The translations under genes and the position numbers were made by a program. The notes below the pieces were generated by a model, which worked only from the letters and a program-made list of their open reading frames with translations, did no database searches and was not told where the DNA came from. From Cylindrotheca closterium (taxonomy: Eukaryota; Bacillariophyta; Bacillariophyceae; Bacillariales; Bacillariaceae): a stretch of 64,000 nt of DNA. Each line of letters opens with the position of its first letter. The first letter of the stretch is position 1. This document shows positions 28,114 to 49,700 of the stretch, in pieces. The stretch is from positions 107,857-171,856 of the forward strand of contig CAKOGP040002269.1 in NCBI GenBank assembly GCA_933822405.4. The letters are read 5' to 3'.

Positions 28114-30139
28114 ATGGCTTCCAACCCAAACAATCCAATCATGAAAAAGCCCAACGGGTCGGAAACAGCGGGCGCATTGCCACCACCATTGGCCATTGCT
28201 CCAGCTCCTTCTGCGACAGCACCAGCACCAATTGCAGTTTCGTCCACAGCAAGCTTCGCGCCAAACGCTGTAGGATCCTTGCATGCTAGCATTGCTTCTG
28301 CAAACGAACCAGGTTCCGGTGGCGGCATGATTCACTCACAGCAACAACTTCCAGCCGATACTCTAGACATGTCCGCATTGAAGGATTCCATGGACGCAGC
28401 TGTTCAGTCCATTCTTCTAGCAGATGACGGAAAGGGCTCTAACGCGAATGGAAATGATGCAGATACTGCCAAGCATGATCAATTGCGGGCCATGTACTTG
28501 GCTGGATTCAAGGCTGCTCAAGCGCGCCAGGTGGGAATACAAGATCAACACCAACAAGCAACGCATCATCAAATAAACGCAGCTCAACATCATCAAAACA
28601 TATTGCGAGATAACTTTGAACAATCTAGAGCTCAAGCAGAACCATTGCCTCCACCACAAGCCTTGTTATTGCCGGTCTCGGGTGGAATGGCTGCGGGTGT
28701 CATTAAAGTACAGCCTGGAACTGCCATGAGTCCAGCTGGAAGTGCTCTTGGTACTTCTCCTGCTACTACCAATTCCAATTCTTCGTCTCGATCATCCCAA
28801 CGAATGACGGGTCGAACTGCTGCTGCCGCCGCTGCTGCTGCTGCTAGCACTCAGGCAGTGAGTCCAGCCCTGTCGGCCGTTTCGACTCCAGGATCTCCTT
28901 CTGCCACTGGTCATTCCAATCCATTTCCACGCAAACTCATGGAAATGCTCAAAAAGGAAGATCAAAATATTGTTGCCTTTTTGCCAAAGGGTGATGCCTT
29001 CATGGTCCGAGATCCCGATGCCTTTGTCGGGAGCGTCCTGCCGCGATATTTTCGTCACACTAAATTGACCTCCTTTCAACGTCAATTGAATTTGTATGGC
29101 TTTCGACGAGTCACCAAGGGACCAGATGCCGGTGCCTATAGACATGACAATTTCCATCGGGACTTTCCCGATCGGTGTTTGCAAATGAAGCGGACCAAGC
29201 AAAAGGGAACGGGCAGCAGTCCCCGACTTGGGCCATCTCCACGCATGAATGGACGAGCCTCGGGGGCATCCTCTCCGTCGTCTCCACTGGTCAGTCCCGG
29301 TGATAGCCCTGCGAGTGCCTATGGTCTGGACTCCCCCATGAGTCAAGGTGGTCCCATGTTGTTGTCCTCTTCCATCATGTCTAGGTGAGTCTTGCCGTCA
29401 TGATTGATGTGTTACATCATTGTTGGGTGCTCATCATTATGACTCTTTTCGTTTCTTTCACAGTTCCTCTGCAGTTCAACTTCCAGGAGCAGCAATGGGA
29501 GAACAGCGACAAGCTCACTTTCGATCCATTTCTCCTTCTCATCCACAAAGTCAATCGACGGCCCCCCAAACTGGGCTGGGAATTCTCATGGGAGGAGGCA
29601 GCAGTGGTGGCGGTGGTGGAGGCCCTGCTCCACTGTTGGCACCCCAAAAGTTTGGTGGACCATCCACCTCCTCTGGTCATTTGACCCCCGATCAGCAAAA
29701 TAGAATTCAAGAGGATCTTGCCGAACGAGAACGACAGGCAGCCGCACTCGGAGCTGCCATGGCACCTTCCGGGGTGGGCCAAGTCTTGCAAGCTCCACCT
29801 CCACTAGTGTCCATGGTGCCACCGTCTGGACATCATCATTCGGCCAAGGCTACCTCTACCGGTAGTAACAATGACATTGCCATGGAAAATATCAATTGGA
29901 ATACCATTCCCGAATTGGGCAACCCTGATGATATGGATATGGATTTTGCCGCCATGTTTGATGCCGAACAAGAACAATCCTTTTTGCATCATAGTCAGCA
30001 GCAGCATCATCAGCATCATCAGCATCAGCACCATCAGCACCATCATCATCAGCCAAATATGGCGCATCCAGGAGAAGCTAAACCTTCCTCTTCCAAGAGT
30101 AGTAGTGGGATACCCAATCCATTGAATTCTACTGGTTAA
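28114..30139 (+). CDS. Heat-shock-factor-type transcription factor, two exons
   Basis: Spliced model join(28114-29384, 29464-30139), 648 residues; a 79-base GT-AG intron. ATG at 28114. The N-terminal ~265 residues are Ala/Pro/Gln-rich and disordered. Residues ~268-368 are an HSF DNA-binding domain: [20 protein letters not shown], then [20 protein letters not shown], and the recognition helix [15 protein letters not shown]. The usual C-terminal DBD Lys/Arg run follows. No clear heptad oligomerisation zone is next, so it may act differently from yeast HSF. The C-terminal half is disordered with a poly-Gly run and a Gln/His tract at about 29995-30057. HSFs are the largest transcription factor family in diatoms. 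Nuclear, binding inverted nGAAn repeats by family knowledge. Confidence 0.92.
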
Positions 30140-35037: not shown

Positions 35038-35481
35038 TTACCAGGCCCAGTAGGAGTCAGTCTCTTGAACCGAAGCTGGTCGTACTTGGACAACTCTGCT
35101 TCTCCTTCTTTGTTCGTCACTGGTGGAATTCCAGTTCCAGTAGTCAACACTGTCTGTTCGAGCGTGAGACCAGCCCCAGTATTGATCATTAGCAGCCGAA
35201 AGGGACGACGCTTTGACAGCTGGTTGGCTTAGGAGGATGTTGGAAACAATATGATCAGCCGAGAGGTACTCTTCGTCAACAAGCTTGTTGATTTCAGCGT
35301 CGTTCTCAGACGACCATTCCCAGTAGCTGCTGCTGTCTTGTTGAGATGACTCGATCGTCATTGGCGTTTGTTGGGCAACCTCCAATGTAAGTGGTGGGAA
35401 TGTTGCCTTGATTGGTTGGACAAGAAGATCCAAGTCCAAAGTGTGGAGGGAAGAAGTGCGGTGATTAAGGTTGGGTGCCAT
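35038..35481 (-). CDS. YWxW-repeat small protein, array member A
   Basis: 147 residues from the ATG at 35481, chosen because MAPNL opens all five array proteins and the frame upstream is not conserved. Four aromatic motifs occur: YWEW (in SSSYWEWSSENDAEINKLVD), YWGW, YWNW and a terminal YWAW that are the last residues of the protein. Between the first and second lies a conserved SADHIVSNIL helix. The N-terminus is hydrophobic-acidic (LDLDLLVQPIKATFPPLT). This is the most divergent of members A-D, with an Arg-rich insert (RRRSRVVQVRP). No signal peptide or membrane span. I do not recognise the family. Confidence 0.75.
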   Translation of the reverse strand: MAPNLNHRTSSLHTLDLDLLVQPIKATFPPLTLEVAQQTPMTIESSQQDSSSYWEWSSENDAEINKLVDEEYLSADHIVSNILLSQPAVKASSLSAANDQYWGWSHARTDSVDYWNWNSTSDEQRRRSRVVQVRPASVQETDSYWAW

Positions 35482-36029
35482 GGTGCCGTTTGTGGTTTTG
35501 AGAGCTTTTTGGTTTTGGAGTTCTGCTTTTACTTTTGTGTGTTTGTGAGTTGTGAGGTTGTTGGCTTGGAATAGTCTTGGGGACTTTTTCCACGTCGTCC
35601 TTTTAGATTTTTCGAAATCCCCAATGGAACCGTTCCGTACAATCAACGTCGACTGCACCGACCAATGGAATCTTACATACCAAAATACTTGGCTCACACT
35701 TTCTCCACAATCCCCACAGAACTGACACACACTTGACACTTCATGTCACGGATGAAAATGCCCCGCTGAATCAATGCATTGCACAGAGTGATTCGCAACT
35801 GCTTGGCTGGCTTCTTGTCATAAACTACAATACAATTCATCCGCTGGCGTGCTAATGACTGCGCTACCAGCTCGTAATCATCAAAATAAAAACATCTTGA
35901 TGAGCTAAGTGTAACGCTGAATCAAATATAATGCAAAGTATATATAACTAGTGTATCCAGCGTTTTTGAAAATATTGTACAGCAGTTTATTAGCATTATA
36001 AGTTGAGATAGACTCGGAATCCAGCCAGA
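35482..36029. other. Intergenic in the YWxW array
   Basis: Promoter of member A and 3' region of member B. The end from 35971 onward is nearly identical to the 3' flank of member D (from about 38036). Confidence 0.5.
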
Positions 36030-36443
36030 TTACCAAGCCCAGTATGAGTCGCTTTCTATTGACTTTTGATTTTGTTCGTCATTGTTGGCTGGCCAGTTCC
36101 AGTAGTCAACGCTTTCCGTTTTGGCATGAGACCAGTCCCAGTATTGATCATTTGCAGCCAAAGTGGAAGACGCAGGAGCTGCTGGTTGTCTTAGAGTGTT
36201 GGCAACGATGTTATCAGCCGAGAGGCTTTCTTCCTCAACAAGCTTGCTGATTTCAGCGTCGTTCTCAGCGGACCATTCCCAGTAGCTGCTGCTGCTGTCT
36301 TGTTGCGATGCCTGGACAATGACCTTATGTGATTGTTCTGCGACCTCCGATGTGAGTGTAGGGAATCCTGCCTTGACTGGTTGGATAAGATCCAAGTCAA
36401 CAGTTTGGAGAAGAAGTTGGGTGCGTTTGAGGTTGGGAGCCAT
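36030..36443 (-). CDS. YWxW-repeat small protein, array member B
   Basis: 137 residues, ATG at 36443. Motif positions: YWEW 54-57, YWDW 101-104, YWNW 114-117 and YWAW 134-137, the last four residues. The conserved frame around them is QQDSSS before the first, SAENDAEI and SADNIVAN after it, AANDQ before the second, SHAKTESVD between second and third, and SDS before the last. The N-terminus MAPNLKRTQ then VDLDLIQPVKAGFPTLTSEV is shared with C and D. Overall acidic. No targeting signal seen. The 3' flank matches member D while the 5' flank matches member C. Confidence 0.78.
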   Translation of the reverse strand: MAPNLKRTQLLLQTVDLDLIQPVKAGFPTLTSEVAEQSHKVIVQASQQDSSSSYWEWSAENDAEISKLVEEESLSADNIVANTLRQPAAPASSTLAANDQYWDWSHAKTESVDYWNWPANNDEQNQKSIESDSYWAW

Positions 36444-37073
36444 GTTTAATAGTTGGTGCTGTAAAGTTTGGGTTTGATTTGATTTGAACCGAGTTAAAAT
36501 TGTGAGACTTTTGATGTGAAAAACACAACGTGGTTTCAAAACTCCCAAGGAACAAAGGAACATTGCATTGCATTTGCAGGTGTGCAAATGCAGATTTTCT
36601 AGAGAGGCATTCGGTGTTCTGCAGATGATGACGATTTGTTATGTGGTTGTGATGGATTTAGTCTTTGTTTCTGACGTTTTGGTGGCAGAGTCAGTCATCT
36701 ATTGTACGCGGAATGTTTCTCGCGTGTGTTGGCAAGCAAGTTTTGTGGCACGAAAGATTGACCAATAAAATCCTTCGAAAAAAATGACGCAGTGACAGAC
36801 CGCGAGTGCCACAGATTGATTACTCTGCACCTTCGTTGGCTTTTCACCAAATTCAACAAGTCGTTCGTTCCTCTTCCTTCAGTGACTCCGCATACTGCCA
36901 AATTAACACACAGCTAGAGCCAAGTCTAACAATAGGGATGAAAGTACCGCCCGTATCTAACATGTATTTACAGTAGGTCGAAATAATATGGTATTCAATG
37001 CCTGAAATATTTTCCAGTCTAATGATACACAGTGCTACATTAAATTGAGAGCTGCGGTTGCATTGGCAGATGA
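36444..37073. other. Intergenic in the YWxW array, with shared promoter block
   Basis: 36516-36565 differs from 37566-37615 by one base in 50. Both blocks sit 73-122 bases upstream of the ATG of their genes (B and C), so this is a duplicated promoter or 5' leader element. Confidence 0.6.
36516..36565 (-). promoter_or_regulatory. Duplicated 50-bp upstream block of member B (also at 37566-37615)
   Basis: Contains GTGAAAAACACAACGTGG and continues to ACAAAGGAACATTG; 49 of 50 bases match the block upstream of member C at the same distance from the start codon. It may be promoter or 5' untranslated sequence; transcript data are needed to tell. Confidence 0.5.
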
Positions 37074-37493
37074 TCACCATGCCCAGTAGGAGTCGCTGTC
37101 TATAGCCGCTCCTATTGAGCCTTGTTGTTCGTCATCGTTGGATGGCCAGTTCCAGTAGTCAACGCTTTCCGTTTTGGCGTGAGACCAGTCCCAGTATTGA
37201 TCATTTGCAGCCAAAGTGGAAGACGCAGGAGCTGCTGCTTGCCTTAGAATGTTGGCAACGATGTGATCAGCCGAGAGGCTTTGCTCATCAATAAGCTTGT
37301 TGATTTCAGCGTCGTTCTCTGCGGACCATTCCCAGTAGCTGCTGCTGTCTTGTTGCGGTGTCTGGACAGTGACATTTTCAGATTGGTGTGCAACTTCCGA
37401 TGTGAGTGTAGGGAATCCTGCCTTGACTGGTTGGATAAGATCCAAGTCAACAGTTTGGAGAACATTTTGAGTGCGCTTGAGGTTGGGGGCCAT
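37074..37493 (-). CDS. YWxW-repeat small protein, array member C
   Basis: 139 residues, ATG at 37493. Same layout as B: YWEW, YWDW, YWNW and a C-terminal YWAW. Differences from B are concentrated in the N-terminal third (VAHQSENVTVQTPQQ) and before the last motif (EQQGSIGAAIDSD). The helix reads SADHIVANILRQ. The strong conservation of the Trp motifs against drift elsewhere suggests that they are what selection keeps. Confidence 0.78.
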   Translation of the reverse strand: MAPNLKRTQNVLQTVDLDLIQPVKAGFPTLTSEVAHQSENVTVQTPQQDSSSYWEWSAENDAEINKLIDEQSLSADHIVANILRQAAAPASSTLAANDQYWDWSHAKTESVDYWNWPSNDDEQQGSIGAAIDSDSYWAW

Positions 37494-38095
37494 GTTTGTA
37501 CGTGCGTGTTGTAAGTTTTTGAGCTTTGAAGTTGAGTCTAAAATTGTGAGACCATTACTGTGGTTGTGAAAAACACAACGTGGTTTCAAAACTCCCAAGC
37601 AACAAAGGAACATTGTGATCGCGTTTGCATTTGCATTTGCATCGCATATATGTGCAACTGCAGATTGACTAGCTGGACTTAATTAAAAAGCGCACTTTTG
37701 AATGTCGTGAGATGTGAGAGCTATTCTAGATTCATTCTTCCTCCGTTGCAATATGACTTCGTTGTGACAGCACACCAGCTGTCTTTGCAATTGCAGACCA
37801 TGACAAAGCGACTACATACTCGCACATCGACTTGATTTAGGACTAAGAAGCATCAGACAAGCACACCTGAAAATAAAAGTCCGAGTAGGATGTCGTGTAG
37901 GTTAGCTTTGCCATGATAAGACAGTTCCATGTCTTGTCCTAGAAAACAGCATGTATCAGCAAGTATCAGTTCAGCCAGAGGTCAATTTTATCCCATTCAT
38001 TACGCTCCTAAAATCATGTGTAACCAAGTGTTTGGAAATATTGTACAGCAGTTTATTAGCATTATAAGTTGAGGTAGCATTGGAATCCAGCCAGA
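37494..38095. other. Intergenic in the YWxW array
   Basis: Holds the upstream block of member C (37566-37615) and, at its end, the 3' flank of member D that matches the 3' flank of member B. Confidence 0.5.
37566..37615 (-). promoter_or_regulatory. Duplicated 50-bp upstream block of member C (also at 36516-36565)
   Basis: One base differs from the block upstream of member B; it lies at the same distance from the ATG. Confidence 0.5.
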
Positions 38096-38506
38096 TTACC
38101 AAGCCCAGTATGAGTCGCTTTCTATTGACTCTTGACTTTGTTCAACATTGTCGGCTGGCCAGTTCCAGTAGTCAACGCTTTCCGTTTTGGCATGAGACCA
38201 GTCCCAGTATTGATCATTAGCAGCCAAAGTGGAAGACGCAGGAGCTGCTGCTTGCCTTAGAATGTTGGCAACGATGTTATCAGCCGAGAGGCTTTCTTCC
38301 TCAACAAGCTTGTTGATTTCAGCGTCGTTCTCAGCCGACCATTCCCAGTAGCTGCTGCTGTCTTGTTGCGGTGTCTGGACAGTGACCTTTTGAGATTGGT
38401 GCGCAACCTCCGATGTGAGTGTAGGGAATCCTGCCTTGACTGGTTGGATAAGATCCAAGTCAACAGTTTGGAGAAGAAGTTGGGTGCGCTTGAGGTTGGG
38501 TGCCAT
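38096..38506 (-). CDS. YWxW-repeat small protein, array member D
   Basis: 136 residues, ATG at 38506. Shares MAPNLKRTQLLLQTVDLDLI with B, and the four motifs YWEW, YWDW, YWNW and terminal YWAW. The last third (SHAKTESVDYWNWPADN, then SIESDSYWAW) and the 3' flank are closest to B, whereas TVQTPQQDSSSYWEW is closest to C, so the gene looks mosaic. No signal peptide or known domain. Confidence 0.78.
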   Translation of the reverse strand: MAPNLKRTQLLLQTVDLDLIQPVKAGFPTLTSEVAHQSQKVTVQTPQQDSSSYWEWSAENDAEINKLVEEESLSADNIVANILRQAAAPASSTLAANDQYWDWSHAKTESVDYWNWPADNVEQSQESIESDSYWAW

Positions 38507-39254
38507 GTTTGCAAGTTGGTGTTGTAACGAGTGACTTTGATTTGAGTTCAATCTAAAATTGTGAGAGTTACATTCGGATGACGTGAATGTGCATTTTGAT
38601 GTCTTGAAGTCAATTTCTCCGAAAGGAAGAGTGATGTCAAAGTGCGTAAATTTCATTTGCAATTGCAAAACGAAATTTGACTTCATCGACTATGATACAT
38701 GTCGGCACGAAAAACGAAAGAAATCTTCATCGAAAAGAAAGGATCATGTGCTAGTAATGATGACTCATTGGTGACAGCACAAAAGACTACTCAGCAATCA
38801 TGATTCAGCATAATTGTCTATAAAAAACGAGTGAATCAGAATGATGACAGCTCGTCTCGGGTACTGACGATGCGATACTCAAGAAGAATCACGATTTTGG
38901 TGGAATTGAATTGCTACTCGCTCGCATGCTTGCGAAGTCGTCCGACTCCGTGTTCCGTCGTCCCGAATCCTAAGGAATTCCAAGTCTCATCACAGATGAA
39001 TCTACCTACAGTGGTACTGTGGCGTGCTCCACAGAAGAACCGGGCAATTGCTATCTATTCGAATTGTAGGGAATTAGATCACATCATCCATCATCGAGAC
39101 CAAGAATGCGAATCATCAATCTCCGTCAGGGGGAGAATCGAGATACTTGATGATACAATTGTAACTTGTTGCTCAAACATTGAGAGTAAATATTTATTCT
39201 AGCAGTAGTATTAAAAGTGTGCAGAGAGTGGCTGCCTATAGTCAAATTTCACAA
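38507..39254. other. Intergenic in the YWxW array
   Basis: The upstream region of member D does not carry the 50-bp block of B and C. A plus-strand open frame (38831-39202) is not conserved and is taken as chance. Confidence 0.45.
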
Positions 39255-39743
39255 TTACCAGTCCCAGTAGGAGTCACTGGCTCCTGCAGCTGCAACAGTT
39301 GTTGTTTGCGTTGCATCAAATTGACGAACTAGCTCTCGTTGTTCGTTCTTGGTAGAGGGCCAGTCCCAGTAGCTAGCAGCTGGTTGTGCCGGAGACCAGT
39401 CCCAGTATTGATCGTTGTCGGCAGAAGTCGTGTTTACGACTCCTGCTGAAGGGGCTTCGCGAATAATGTTTTCAATAATGTGATCGGCACAGACAAGCTC
39501 TGCGGCTTGTTCCTCAGCCATAGCTTGTTGGACCTTCACATCATTGTCGCCATTCCATTCCCAGTAGTCGCTGCTATCTTGCTTTGGAGACGTTTGGATG
39601 GTTGTGTCACCACAACCAGCCTTCCCTTGTGATTGGGGTACTTGGGCTTCCGATGTTAGTGGGGGGAATGTTTTCAAGTCTTGAAGATCCAAGCCAGCGG
39701 CAGTTTGAAGGACAAGGGGGCGGTGCTTTAGGTTAGGTGCCAT
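39255..39743 (-). CDS. YWxW-repeat small protein, array member E
   Basis: 162 residues, ATG at 39743. The most diverged and longest member: MAPNLKHRP start, then SSDYWEWNGDNDVKVQQAMA, ADHIIENIIREAPS, DQYWDWSPAQPAASYWDWPS, and a C-terminal YWDW. It keeps all four aromatic motifs, the SxDHI helix and the FPPLTSE segment, which helps define the family core. An extra Gly/Cys segment (GKAGCGDTT) lies before the first motif. Probably the oldest split within the array. Confidence 0.78.
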   Translation of the reverse strand: MAPNLKHRPLVLQTAAGLDLQDLKTFPPLTSEAQVPQSQGKAGCGDTTIQTSPKQDSSDYWEWNGDNDVKVQQAMAEEQAAELVCADHIIENIIREAPSAGVVNTTSADNDQYWDWSPAQPAASYWDWPSTKNEQRELVRQFDATQTTTVAAAGASDSYWDW

Positions 39744-40851: not shown

Positions 40852-41560
40852 ATGACAACTACACGTCTACTTATTGCGCTAGTGGCAATACAGCTACTCG
40901 TAGTATCCTTCTCACATGCCTTGAGTCCAAATGCAGCTGGACAGGCGTCGCGAAGGGCCTTTGTCGAAAACAGTATGGCCTCGGCGGCTCTTGGTTTCGT
41001 TGCTTGGCAAGGCTTACCTGCCAACGCAGCAGCAGCCGACAAGGCAGCGTTTGAAGGATTTCTGTCTCAAATTCAACGAGCCCGTCAGCAAATGGATAGT
41101 GTTCCGGCTTTGATTGATGCAGAAAAGTGGGACTCTGTGAGAGCGGTATGTTGAAATGTTGATGTGAAAGGTATCCTTCAACCAGCTTGCTAATTGCTTG
41201 GAATTCCTGCTGACCATTATGCCCTTTGCATTTTTGAACTAGGTTCTCGTTGAGCCTCCGCTAGCAGATTGCTGGGCCAAGACTAGTCGACCCTTGCTAT
41301 CCAAGTATGCGGAAAGTTTGGGTGACAGCGGTGGGGATGAATTAGCAGCCTTGGAGGCCAAAGAAGAGCTGGTCAGTCACCTTCGGTACCTAGATATGGC
41401 GGTGTACAACAACAACTTCAACCCGATCACTGTAGAGGGAAAGAATGGAGCCACAAAAGAACTGATCCGAAGTTACTACGAAGACCCTATGAACGAATAT
41501 AAGGCTTCAATTGCAGCATTGAATGATTTGATAAAACTAGCTTCCGAGACGGGATCATAA
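40852..41560 (+). CDS. Thylakoid-lumen PsbQ/Psb31-like candidate, two exons
   Basis: Spliced model join(40852-41145, 41243-41560), 203 residues; a 97-base GT-AG intron in phase 0. A signal peptide ends SHA-LSP, followed by RRAFVENSMASAALGFVAWQ ending in Ala-rich ANAAAA, a lumen-targeting signal. The mature part is all-helical: FLSQIQRARQQMDSVPALID, then KWDSVRAVLVEPPLADCWAK, ELVSHLRYLDMAVYNNNF and ASIAALNDLIKLA. This spacing of four helices with a short WDxVR turn resembles the extrinsic photosystem II proteins PsbQ, PsbQ' and the diatom Psb31. I cannot decide among these by eye. The start could instead be a mini-exon at 40548-40553 spliced to 40840, which would add MKPHST in frame. Confidence 0.65.
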
Positions 41561-41797: not shown

Positions 41798-42785
41798 TCA
41801 TAGGTTGAAGCTGCTCTCGACTGCTAAGCCACCATGACTAAAGAGAATCTCATTTTGATGTTCCAAGTAGTGAATGTCAGCCTTGCTGAGAGAGACGGGT
41901 TCAGATGATGATGAGTCCTTGTCCTTGTTGGGCATGGAATTCTCCGCCAATTGAAACACATAGTCATCATCGTCTTCATCCTCAATAATCTCGAGCCCGT
42001 ACTTATCACTGTTGTTACCCTTGGCATCCTTCAAGACGGGCTTGAACTGGACGGATTTAGGAAGAGGAGCAACTTTATTGATACGATCAAAGTCTGGAGC
42101 ACCAAAGCCAGCACCAGAAGCTAGACGGGCGGCGGCAGCAGCGTGTTTGACCTTGGGTGGACGGCGCATATCAAAGCATAGGTTTGGAATACCACGGAGA
42201 AACATCTGAAGTTATGAAAAAAAGGCAAAAGTCAGAACACTGATCTTGATCACTCGTAATGAAGCGGAGTGGTTCCATAGAATTCTTTGAACTTACATCG
42301 TGGTAGTAGGCATTCATGTCAGGGCCTTCCGTGATTCTGTTAAAAGCCCATCCGTTGACTTGTCTCATGAAAGATGCCATTCGGTCACTGCGGAAGAACT
42401 TGGGAATCACCTTCGATTCGAAGCCTTTTTGGTCCGTAACCTTCCAGGCTCTGCCATGTGGCAGCCAAGCGATGCAGTCTTGAAAGGCAGGGTTGGAAAG
42501 GATGTAGTGAAGCTTGATCGGGAAGGGCAGGTTCATGTCAACTTCGTAGGAGCTGTTTTGCTTTCTTGGCTTCTCAACAGATTGTCCGAACTCGAACAAT
42601 GACGAGTCCAGCATGTTCATGGATCCGGAGACCTGTTTCATGTTGTTGGAGAGATTCTTCATGTTGAGCTGCGGGACCCCTGGGAGATCCTCCGGTAGAT
42701 CATCAAAGTCTAGCTTTAAAAGTCCATCGTCTGGTGCTGGCACAATATTGCGTTGTTGAGCGGCGGTTGGGTTCATCATCGACAT
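41798..42785 (-). CDS. Second HSF-type DNA-binding protein, two exons
   Basis: Spliced model complement(41798-42205, 42297-42785), 298 residues; a 91-base GT-AG intron interrupts the end of the DNA-binding domain in phase 0, joining AYYHD to MFLRG. ATG at 42785. Residues ~86-185 match the diatom HSF fold: PFPIKLHYILSNPAFQDCIA, WLPHGRAWKVTD, KVIPKFFRSDRMASFMRQVN and GWAFNRITEGPD. The recognition helix has RQVNGWAF where canonical HSFs have RQLNxYGF. The C-terminal part is acidic and Ser-rich (EIIEDEDDDDYVFQ), with LSKADIHYLEHQN. Probably a nuclear regulator. No coiled coil seen, so oligomerisation is uncertain. Confidence 0.88.
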
Positions 42786-46778: not shown

Positions 46779-49700
46779 ATGAAGACTTATCGACATTGCC
46801 TCTTGCCAATGATGCTGTTCGGATTCGCTCTGTTGGGAGCCTTCGTTGATGGAGGACGACCACCACGACCATCAAGAAGAGGTGCCGATAGCAATGATGA
46901 TTTTCTGACCGGCACGAAAGAAAGCAGTCGAGCATTGGAAAATGTTCAAGACCCAGGACCTTTTCGGATTGGAGATGAGATAGCCATTACAATATCCACA
47001 GATCCTGAAATCAGTCAAATTCAACCAGAAACATCAACAACAATTCTGAAGAACAAGAAGAGACAACAAGTTGAGCATACCTACACTCTGCACCACACAG
47101 GAGCGACGTACATTGCTCTCCACTTCGCGTCCATGGACATGGAAGGTGAATGCCAATTACGGGTGACGGATGGAAGTGGAAGACAAGCGTACACTATGCA
47201 TGGAAATGACAAGCATGGATTAACTTCCTTCTGGGCTCGGCACGTCGCTGGTGATACGGCAGCCATGTCTGTTATTTGCAACCAAGATAAAGAGGATACT
47301 GGCAATTTTCTCATTGACAAATACGCAGCTGGATTCCGATCGTTGGCTGCTGCTGCCATTCCAGGAGGTGCTGGTGCCAGAAACCTTCGTGGGCTGGACG
47401 GGAGCGACCAGTTTACCGTTTGTGGCATTGATGATCTCCGCAATTCACAATGCTATTTGAATTCTCATCCTACGGAATACAAATCGTCGCGGGCAGTTGC
47501 CAAAATTATTACTCAGGGTACCGGCGCTTGCACTGGATGGCTATTGGGAAACGACAACGTAATTGTCACAAATGCTCATTGCATCAGGGCGAATGAGACT
47601 GCAGTCAATGCAGATTATGTGTTCAATTTTGAAGTGCAGAATGGAGGTGGGGATTGCTCGCAAAACACACCAGGAACAGAGTCTGTCCCGCTTACCTATC
47701 AGGATGTCTATGATGCAGAATCGATGATTACGTTCAGCCGACTCCACGACTACGTTTTGATCAAGCTCATAGATAAACCAAGTGCCCCATTGAAAAGATA
47801 CGGGTAAGTTCTGTGGCTTCCGTTGGACTTGCAGTATTCATCTGTTTCATACTCTCTGACCAAATCTTTCATTCGTGACTTGCTCAGCTTTCTGGAAACC
47901 GAGTCACGGACAATTACTGCGGGGGAAGAGATTTATGTGCCGCAGCATCCTTTTGGAAATGACAAGGCTCTTGCCGTCTTTGATTCCGAATACGGGGTTG
48001 GACAACGATGTCGGACGGAGGAATCTCAAGTTGCTTGCTATGGTTACAGGGGCGACGTGCCCTATCGAGACCTACGATACACTTGTGACACGGAATCAGG
48101 ATCCTCCGGTGCGCCGGTTATTTCGGTCGAAACCAACAAGGTTGTCGCCCTTCATCACTGTGGTGAACTCTTCAAGTGTAACGGGAACGAAGGGGTTCCA
48201 TCGACCTTTCTTCATCAAGTATTTCAGGATGAGCTCGGTGACGGTTCGTTGCCACCCGCGCCTCTCACGTCAATGCAATGTGCTCCAGGCCAACTTTTGA
48301 TGCTGTTGGAACTACAAACCGACTTTTTTGGATACGAGACAACCTGGGAGTTGCGAGACAGTGCCAACACTCTGTTGGCAGAGGGAGGGAAGAATCAGTA
48401 TTACCGATCCAATGAATTATATTCCTTCCAGATTTGCCTTTCATCATCCGATGTGTACACTTTGACTATTGAAGATTCGTACCAAGATGGAATGTGTTGT
48501 CAACACAAGATTGGATTCTACAATGTGTTTTTCGGTGATCAATTGGTGGCCACGGGAGGAGATTTTGGTTCCAGCGTCACTATTGAAGTGGACAATTCTT
48601 CCCAATCGAGTCAGACTTCTGGACCGACGAGTGGACCAACTAGCGGACCAACATCGGCTCCCACGTCTGGCCCAACATCTGGCCCTACGAGTGGACCAAC
48701 ATTTGGTCCAACCTCTGTTCCAACATTTGGTCCTACTTCTGATCCCACGGCCTCGCCTACCTCCGGGCCTTCTTCGTCGTCTCCCACACCTGGTCCTACC
48801 TTTGGCCCAACATCTGGTCCAACTTCCCCACCTACTCGTGTGATAACATCGGGTCCTACGAGTGGTCCGACATTAGTCCCCACCTCATTCCCAACATCTG
48901 GCCCGACCAATTTGCCAACTACTGCTCCTACAAGTGGGCCAACATCTGGTCCTACTTTTGAACCAACATCTGGACCAACATCTGGACCAACGACTGGACC
49001 TACCAGTGGCCCTTCCCATAGACCAACAAACAGTCCAAGCTCTAGACCAACTTCTGGCCCAACAAGTGCGCCAACCCAGTCACAGACGTCTGTTTCCACA
49101 AAGCAAACGGAAGGAAACGGTGATCCACATTGTAAGCTCATTTTGTGCTTGTTCCGAACATGAGTTTTCCCTAATCGCTTGATAATATCACTAACGCTTT
49201 CCCTTCCTTGCTCTCTCTCTCTCTCTCTCTCTCTCGCCACAGTCAAGACATGGAAGAACGAACACTTTGAATTCCATGGACAGTGTGACATTGTCATGGT
49301 TTCCAACAAGGACTTTTGCGATGGTCGTGGTATTGATATTCACATCCGTACCAAGATTGTTCGATTTTGGAGTTACATTGAGAATGTTGTGATCCGAATC
49401 GGAAATGACATTCTGGAGGTAACGGGATCTTCTTCTCAGAAGGAAGACGGCAAGAGTAACTATTGGATCAACTACGAAGGCATGGGCGACTTGGAGGATC
49501 TATCTGGTTTCCCCGTATCGATCAGCGCCAGCACTGACAAGTACACGATTGATCTTGGCAGTCATTATCCTGGGGAAAAGATCGAGATCAGGACATTCAA
49601 AGAGTTTGTCGGAGTGAAGATCATTGGAGCAACCGAGTCATCCTTTGGTACTTCTGTTGGTATCACTGGTGACTTTATCACGGGCAACACCTATGCTCGT

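Follow-up and report, generated by a model that had tools for sequence, protein, structure and literature searches.

A tandem array of five genes in the diatom Cylindrotheca closterium encodes members of a protein family with repeated Tyr-Trp motifs, which has no name in the libraries and literature searched (no account of it was found in titles, abstracts or family libraries) and which is broader than the initial annotation of this DNA had it. We see about an even chance that its members are disordered multivalent docking proteins, in which YW serves as the docking peptide. The window referred to throughout is the whole analysed stretch of 64,000 nt (GCA_933822405.4, contig CAKOGP040002269.1, positions 107,857–171,856 of the forward strand).

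A tandem array of five genes

The array of five minus-strand genes described in the initial annotation is borne out by five uninterrupted frames within 35038–39743 (Table 1). All five proteins start with MAPNL and contain exactly four YWxW motifs, the fourth being the C-terminal end in 5/5, as had been noted, and in every copy 8/8 Trp residues lie inside YWxW. None of 20,000 composition shuffles per protein contained four YWxW (mean YWxW count 0.009–0.014), which, together with the dN/dS values given below, rules out chance or low complexity as the origin of the motifs. Two further features of the annotation hold in part. Although the number of motifs is constant, their spacing is not fixed, since it ranges over 47–53 residues between motifs 1 and 2, 12–13 between motifs 2 and 3 and 20–34 between motifs 3 and 4. 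Similarly, the S-A-D-x-I helix between motifs 1 and 2 is conserved except in copy A, which has CADHI instead of SADxI. With net charges of −10 to −15, the window proteins are strongly acidic, and they have no long hydrophobic stretch, the highest 19-residue Kyte-Doolittle mean being 0.95; no plastid leader is apparent in them by eye.

Table 1. Members of the array and neighbouring features, in window positions
Feature	Length (aa)	Position	Strand	Remarks
Copy A	162	39255-39743	-	Uninterrupted frame; YWxW at residues 60, 113, 125, 159; diverged member
Copy B	136	38096-38506	-	Uninterrupted frame; YWxW at residues 53, 100, 113, 133
Copy C	139	37074-37493	-	Uninterrupted frame; YWxW at residues 53, 100, 113, 136
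Copy D	137	36030-36443	-	Uninterrupted frame; YWxW at residues 54, 101, 114, 134
Copy E	147	35038-35481	-	Uninterrupted frame; YWxW at residues 53, 101, 114, 144
HSF-type DNA-binding gene		28114-29388	+	Flanks the array
HSF-type DNA-binding gene		42171-42785	-	Flanks the array
Open frame		40852-41154	+	Lumen protein-like; no Pfam match
Open frame		41294-41560	+	Lumen protein-like; no Pfam match
Open frame		48273-49163	+	Long run of GPTSGPTS-type repeats

Among the neighbours of the array, two adjacent open frames may encode pieces of a lumen protein that is plastid-targeted and perhaps PsbQ-like. The window also holds a chlorophyll-binding light-harvesting gene. This gene, the two HSF-type genes and the origin of the closest named relatives of the five proteins, Cylindrotheca closterium, all fit a diatom nuclear genome.

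Upstream of MAPNL the frames stay open for 19–88 codons. A coding 5' extension of the MAPNL frames was considered and rejected, because B, C and D differ there by indels of 2 and 4 bases, which disrupt the frame, and the open stretches are therefore taken as leaders (in C and D, probably). In C and D (upstream of 37493 and 36443, minus strand) an in-frame ATG is located exactly 40 codons before MAPNL; the two frames open alike, with MFLC(C/S)LGVLKPRCVFH, and indels break the frame further on. With regard to shared promoter elements, no 7-mer is common to all five upstream 500-base stretches.

Selection and duplication history

B, C and D arose by recent duplication, with dS of 0.12 for B versus D and 0.20 for C versus both B and D, whereas E is older (dN 0.23–0.24 and dS 0.51–0.58 against B–D). 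The initial annotation had named dN/dS near 1 between the copies, along with an absence of transcripts, as a finding that would refute its proposal; the ratio is 0.36–0.48 among B–E, which are thus under purifying selection. For pairs with A the ratio is 0.17–0.28, but these values are unreliable because dS exceeds 1.5 there and is saturated.

For the phylogenetic tree we used 22 of the 27 four-motif-type proteins, with P0013, P0018, P0020, P0026 and P0027 dropped as partial or fused; 5 of its 19 inner branches are well supported. A clusters with P0022–P0025 (support 100/100), B groups with D (96/84), and B, C and D together form a weak group (80/57). E falls, without a settled position, inside a larger group that also holds B–D. 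Thus, the proposed division of A and E against B–D stands for A, which belongs to a separate clade, but not for E.

Further copies were sought in the 47.6-Mb genome (572 contigs) and none were found; nor did the genome yield fusions or other subfamilies, both empty results being weak evidence with the search used. Queries from other subfamilies match this array or nothing, the one exception being a weak match (E 0.70) on contig 47. The 12-base YW[DENK]W pattern occurs at 223 genome places versus 72 for the reversed control, and among the matches listed, which leave aside the contig of the window, no two are within 1 kb of each other.

A family beyond the array

A profile search, which the initial annotation had proposed, proved productive: iterated searches recovered a kinase fusion and 90 further proteins, which are 86–359 aa long and carry up to ten YW. 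The single-sequence search kept 17 proteins out of 53 candidates, and profile A2 gave 35 proteins with E up to 1 among the best 7995 candidates, which were those scored. Profile A3, which was built including four weak A2-stage members used to widen the search (P0033, E 5.6e-3; P0034, 0.067; P0035, 0.19; P0036, 0.33), gave 71 out of 2886, with membership resting partly on our judgement that the head (MAPN), the YW motifs and the helix are shared. In the A3 search E was ≤2.1e-4 for every match but the kinase fusion, P0096 (E 0.96). Later profile comparisons support the link of P0033–P0036, and the profile of the four-motif set matches the two other subfamily profiles at 99.5%. The resulting set comprises 96 proteins including the five of the window; P0096 is left out of the counts, which refer to the remaining 95. 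The array is real, but as a description of the family it is too narrow, since four motifs characterize one branch.

Six records name an organism, and all are diatoms: P0006, P0012 and P0017 (Cylindrotheca), P0076 (Synedropsis), and P0020 and P0025 (Bacillariaceae sp.). These span two diatom classes, Bacillariophyceae and Fragilariophyceae, and the family is likely diatom-specific, the other records being environmental or without an organism name. Transcript records of relatives include three Cylindrotheca closterium MMETSP proteins, one Synedropsis MMETSP protein and one more MMETSP relative without a visible organism name; P0006, a Cylindrotheca closterium transcript protein, is 83% identical to copy B. 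P0020, from a Bacillariaceae MAG, comprises two copies one after the other and has a second MAPNL in its interior, which suggests that copies may be neighbours in that genome as well; the gene model may have joined them. The long members P0044 and P0046 are both on a 9420-base contig, possibly the same one and thus another tandem pair. Of the pattern matches in viral contigs (23 and 16) and in prokaryote genomes (40), none was confirmed as a relative.

The motif and the repeat unit

The wider family modifies the YWxW form of the motif, which is better written S-D-x-Y-W-x-[W/E/M]. The 95 proteins contain 578 YW pairs, in most of which the residue at +3 is Trp (345 pairs), Glu (124) or Met (35); Asp occupies −2 in 304 pairs, and Ser occupies −3 in 254. 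Nearly all Trp residues (920 of 962) are inside YW or YWxW, in a set that was gathered by searches favouring the motif. Consistent with the claim that the Trp motifs are more conserved than the remainder, mean conservation in a 26-row alignment is 98% in motif columns versus 68% in other columns. The ends are also kept: MAPN is present in 87/95, and in 69/95 the chain stops right after YWxx (YWxW in 45 of these and YWxM in 21).

The motifs are arranged in a repeat unit consisting of YWxW, a helix (LSADHIVxNIL), a linker and DxYW, with one unit in the window proteins and three in the long members, so that relatives have up to three units and up to ten YW where the initial annotation saw four motifs. 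The SADxI helix belongs to this unit; hence, in a window protein a single unit follows the head and is itself followed by a tail that bears the other two YWxW. The two YW of one unit are 41–71 residues apart in 21 of 24 rows of alignment A6. In hhalign, units 1, 2 and 3 of the long members (21 proteins) match one another and the window unit (22 of the 27 four-motif-type proteins) at 97.5–99.5% with the YW ends included. Without the YW ends, the values are 61.1% for units 1 and 2, 92.1% for 1 and 3, and 97.3% for 2 and 3, and those against the window unit are 76.3%, 91.4% and 94.7% for units 1, 2 and 3, respectively. These matches indicate homology among the three units and with the unit of the window proteins.

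One candidate reader of the motifs is the mu-homology domain of a coatomer subunit such as delta-COP, which would make the family vesicle-coat ligands bound through YWxW. The ELM entry LIG_deltaCOP1_diTrp_1 describes Trp motifs with negative surroundings (PMC7145657), to which the acidic context here is alike, and a WxxF form is reported for Gcs1 (PMC6737914). The pattern W.{1,6}[WF] is indeed found in 95/95 proteins, but shuffles match it in 90.3/95 on average, making it uninformative here. Moreover, the nearly invariant Tyr is foreign to the delta-COP motif so described, Glu (124/578) or Met can stand in for the second Trp, and no trafficking domain is attached, so that we hold this reading to be very improbable.

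Several other Trp-dependent or peptide-docking systems were compared by pattern. Argonaute-hook proteins carry GW/WG repeats of Trp in disordered chains; here GW/WG occurs in 16/95, below the shuffle mean of 27.7, and the comparison was rejected. The same applies to PABP-binding PAM2 peptides (regular expression in 1/95 versus a shuffle mean of 1.16) and to CIA-targeted proteins, whose C-terminal [LIM][DES][WF] is found in 0/95. The kinesin W-acidic pattern matches 81/95 versus a shuffle mean of 44.5, a result which YW[DE] alone largely yields.

Domain and structure predictions

In agreement with the claim of an undescribed family without a named domain, no Pfam-A match with E < 0.001 was found in the five window proteins or in sets of 19, 22, 7 and 24 proteins, except for the kinase part of P0096; the best stray match was RGCC (E 0.0035, in 1/19). 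Sequence and profile searches of PDB chains gave a best E of 0.08 (SH3 domain-binding protein 5). The model of P0002 has a mean pLDDT of 55.1 and pTM of 0.14, with helices at residues 58–69 and 75–84. That of the relative P0085 has a mean pLDDT of 61.5 and pTM of 0.21, with helices at 6–15, 23–28, 52–70, 155–158 and 181–185 and its best block at residues 51–60 (average pLDDT 78). Both models are poor, with helices but neither strands nor a fold, and the motifs do not come together in either. The poor models point to disorder, although they come from shallow alignments of 22 and 26 rows (Neff 2.1 for A4), with which AlphaFold cannot separate disorder from an unseen fold.

Low model confidence does not prove disorder, and the models might fail only for want of sequences if the proteins formed a small folded ligand-binding domain in which, for instance, Trp-paired hairpins surround the helix. 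Two YWxW 12–13 residues apart, mostly joined by a SHAKTES-like linker, would suit such a fold. However, successive YW in the 21 long members are separated by spacers of 9–71 residues and no strand appears in either model, so a folded domain seems improbable. As for the ligands proposed initially, carbohydrate or pigment, nothing was found in the data to support either.

If the chains are disordered, the repeated aromatic motifs may instead bind mainly each other, as phase-separating stickers, another of the initial proposals, that build a liquid- or gel-like body with copy number setting the dose. Tandem copies and disordered-looking models are what such proteins might show, and diatoms offer a precedent in PYCO1, the pyrenoid linker of Phaeodactylum, in which the Trp and Tyr of the repeated short motifs KWSPR and GTGYNP are essential (PMC10288592). 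The present family is alike in being a diatom family with repeated Trp and Tyr motifs, but it is set apart from PYCO1 by motif pattern: KWSP occurs in 0/95, and a PYCO1-type Rubisco linker was accordingly rejected. Furthermore, a motif this exact, flanked by S and D, seems more specific than stickers would need, and the window proteins are strongly acidic. We regard stickers as unlikely, though the least so of these alternatives.

The acidic, Ser-rich chains with short Trp-rich motifs also resemble nuclear activation or coactivator segments, in which YW would contact a general transcription coactivator, and the two HSF-type genes in the window lend this a weak hint. Such segments, however, usually diverge fast, unlike the nearly invariant Y, W and ends of this family, and the Pfam search found no DNA-binding domain in its members. 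An activation function is thus quite unlikely.

A possible docking function

We return to multivalent docking, to which the invariant aromatic motif, free spacers, negative charge, lack of a long hydrophobic stretch and kinase fusion together would point. The five genes would encode small, acidic, largely disordered proteins, probably cytosolic or nuclear given the absence of a long hydrophobic stretch, and these would serve as scaffolds for multivalent docking. Each S-D-x-Y-W-x-[W/E/M] would function as a short linear motif, and a partner shared by all of them would offer a pocket for its Tyr-Trp pair. A second contact could come from the helix that separates motif 1 from motif 2 (DAEINKxVxEExLSADHIVxNIL), and the two conserved ends, MAPN[LR]K... 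at the head and the exact YWxW at the C terminus, may be recognized as well. In P0096, a single environmental record, a MAPNL head and two YW directly precede a CAMK-like kinase domain (Pkinase, E 1.9e-70), and the head matches profile A5 at 95.6%; the YW region would here be placed as a portable module would. Counting against docking are the value of 61% for units 1 and 2 without the YW ends and the fact that the kinase fusion is one environmental protein.

Disordered proteins with repeated motifs are a known kind, and what marks this family is a motif kept more strictly than the remaining protein. More tentatively, and with the odds rather against it, DxYWx[W/E/M] may be a linear docking code of the diatoms' own, read by one or few dedicated receptors and carried in different copy numbers by many disordered adaptors and at least one CAMK-type kinase. 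If so, diatoms would have a scaffold or signalling system specific to them and as yet undescribed. A short YW peptide could serve directly as bait for the receptor of the motif in a laboratory diatom.
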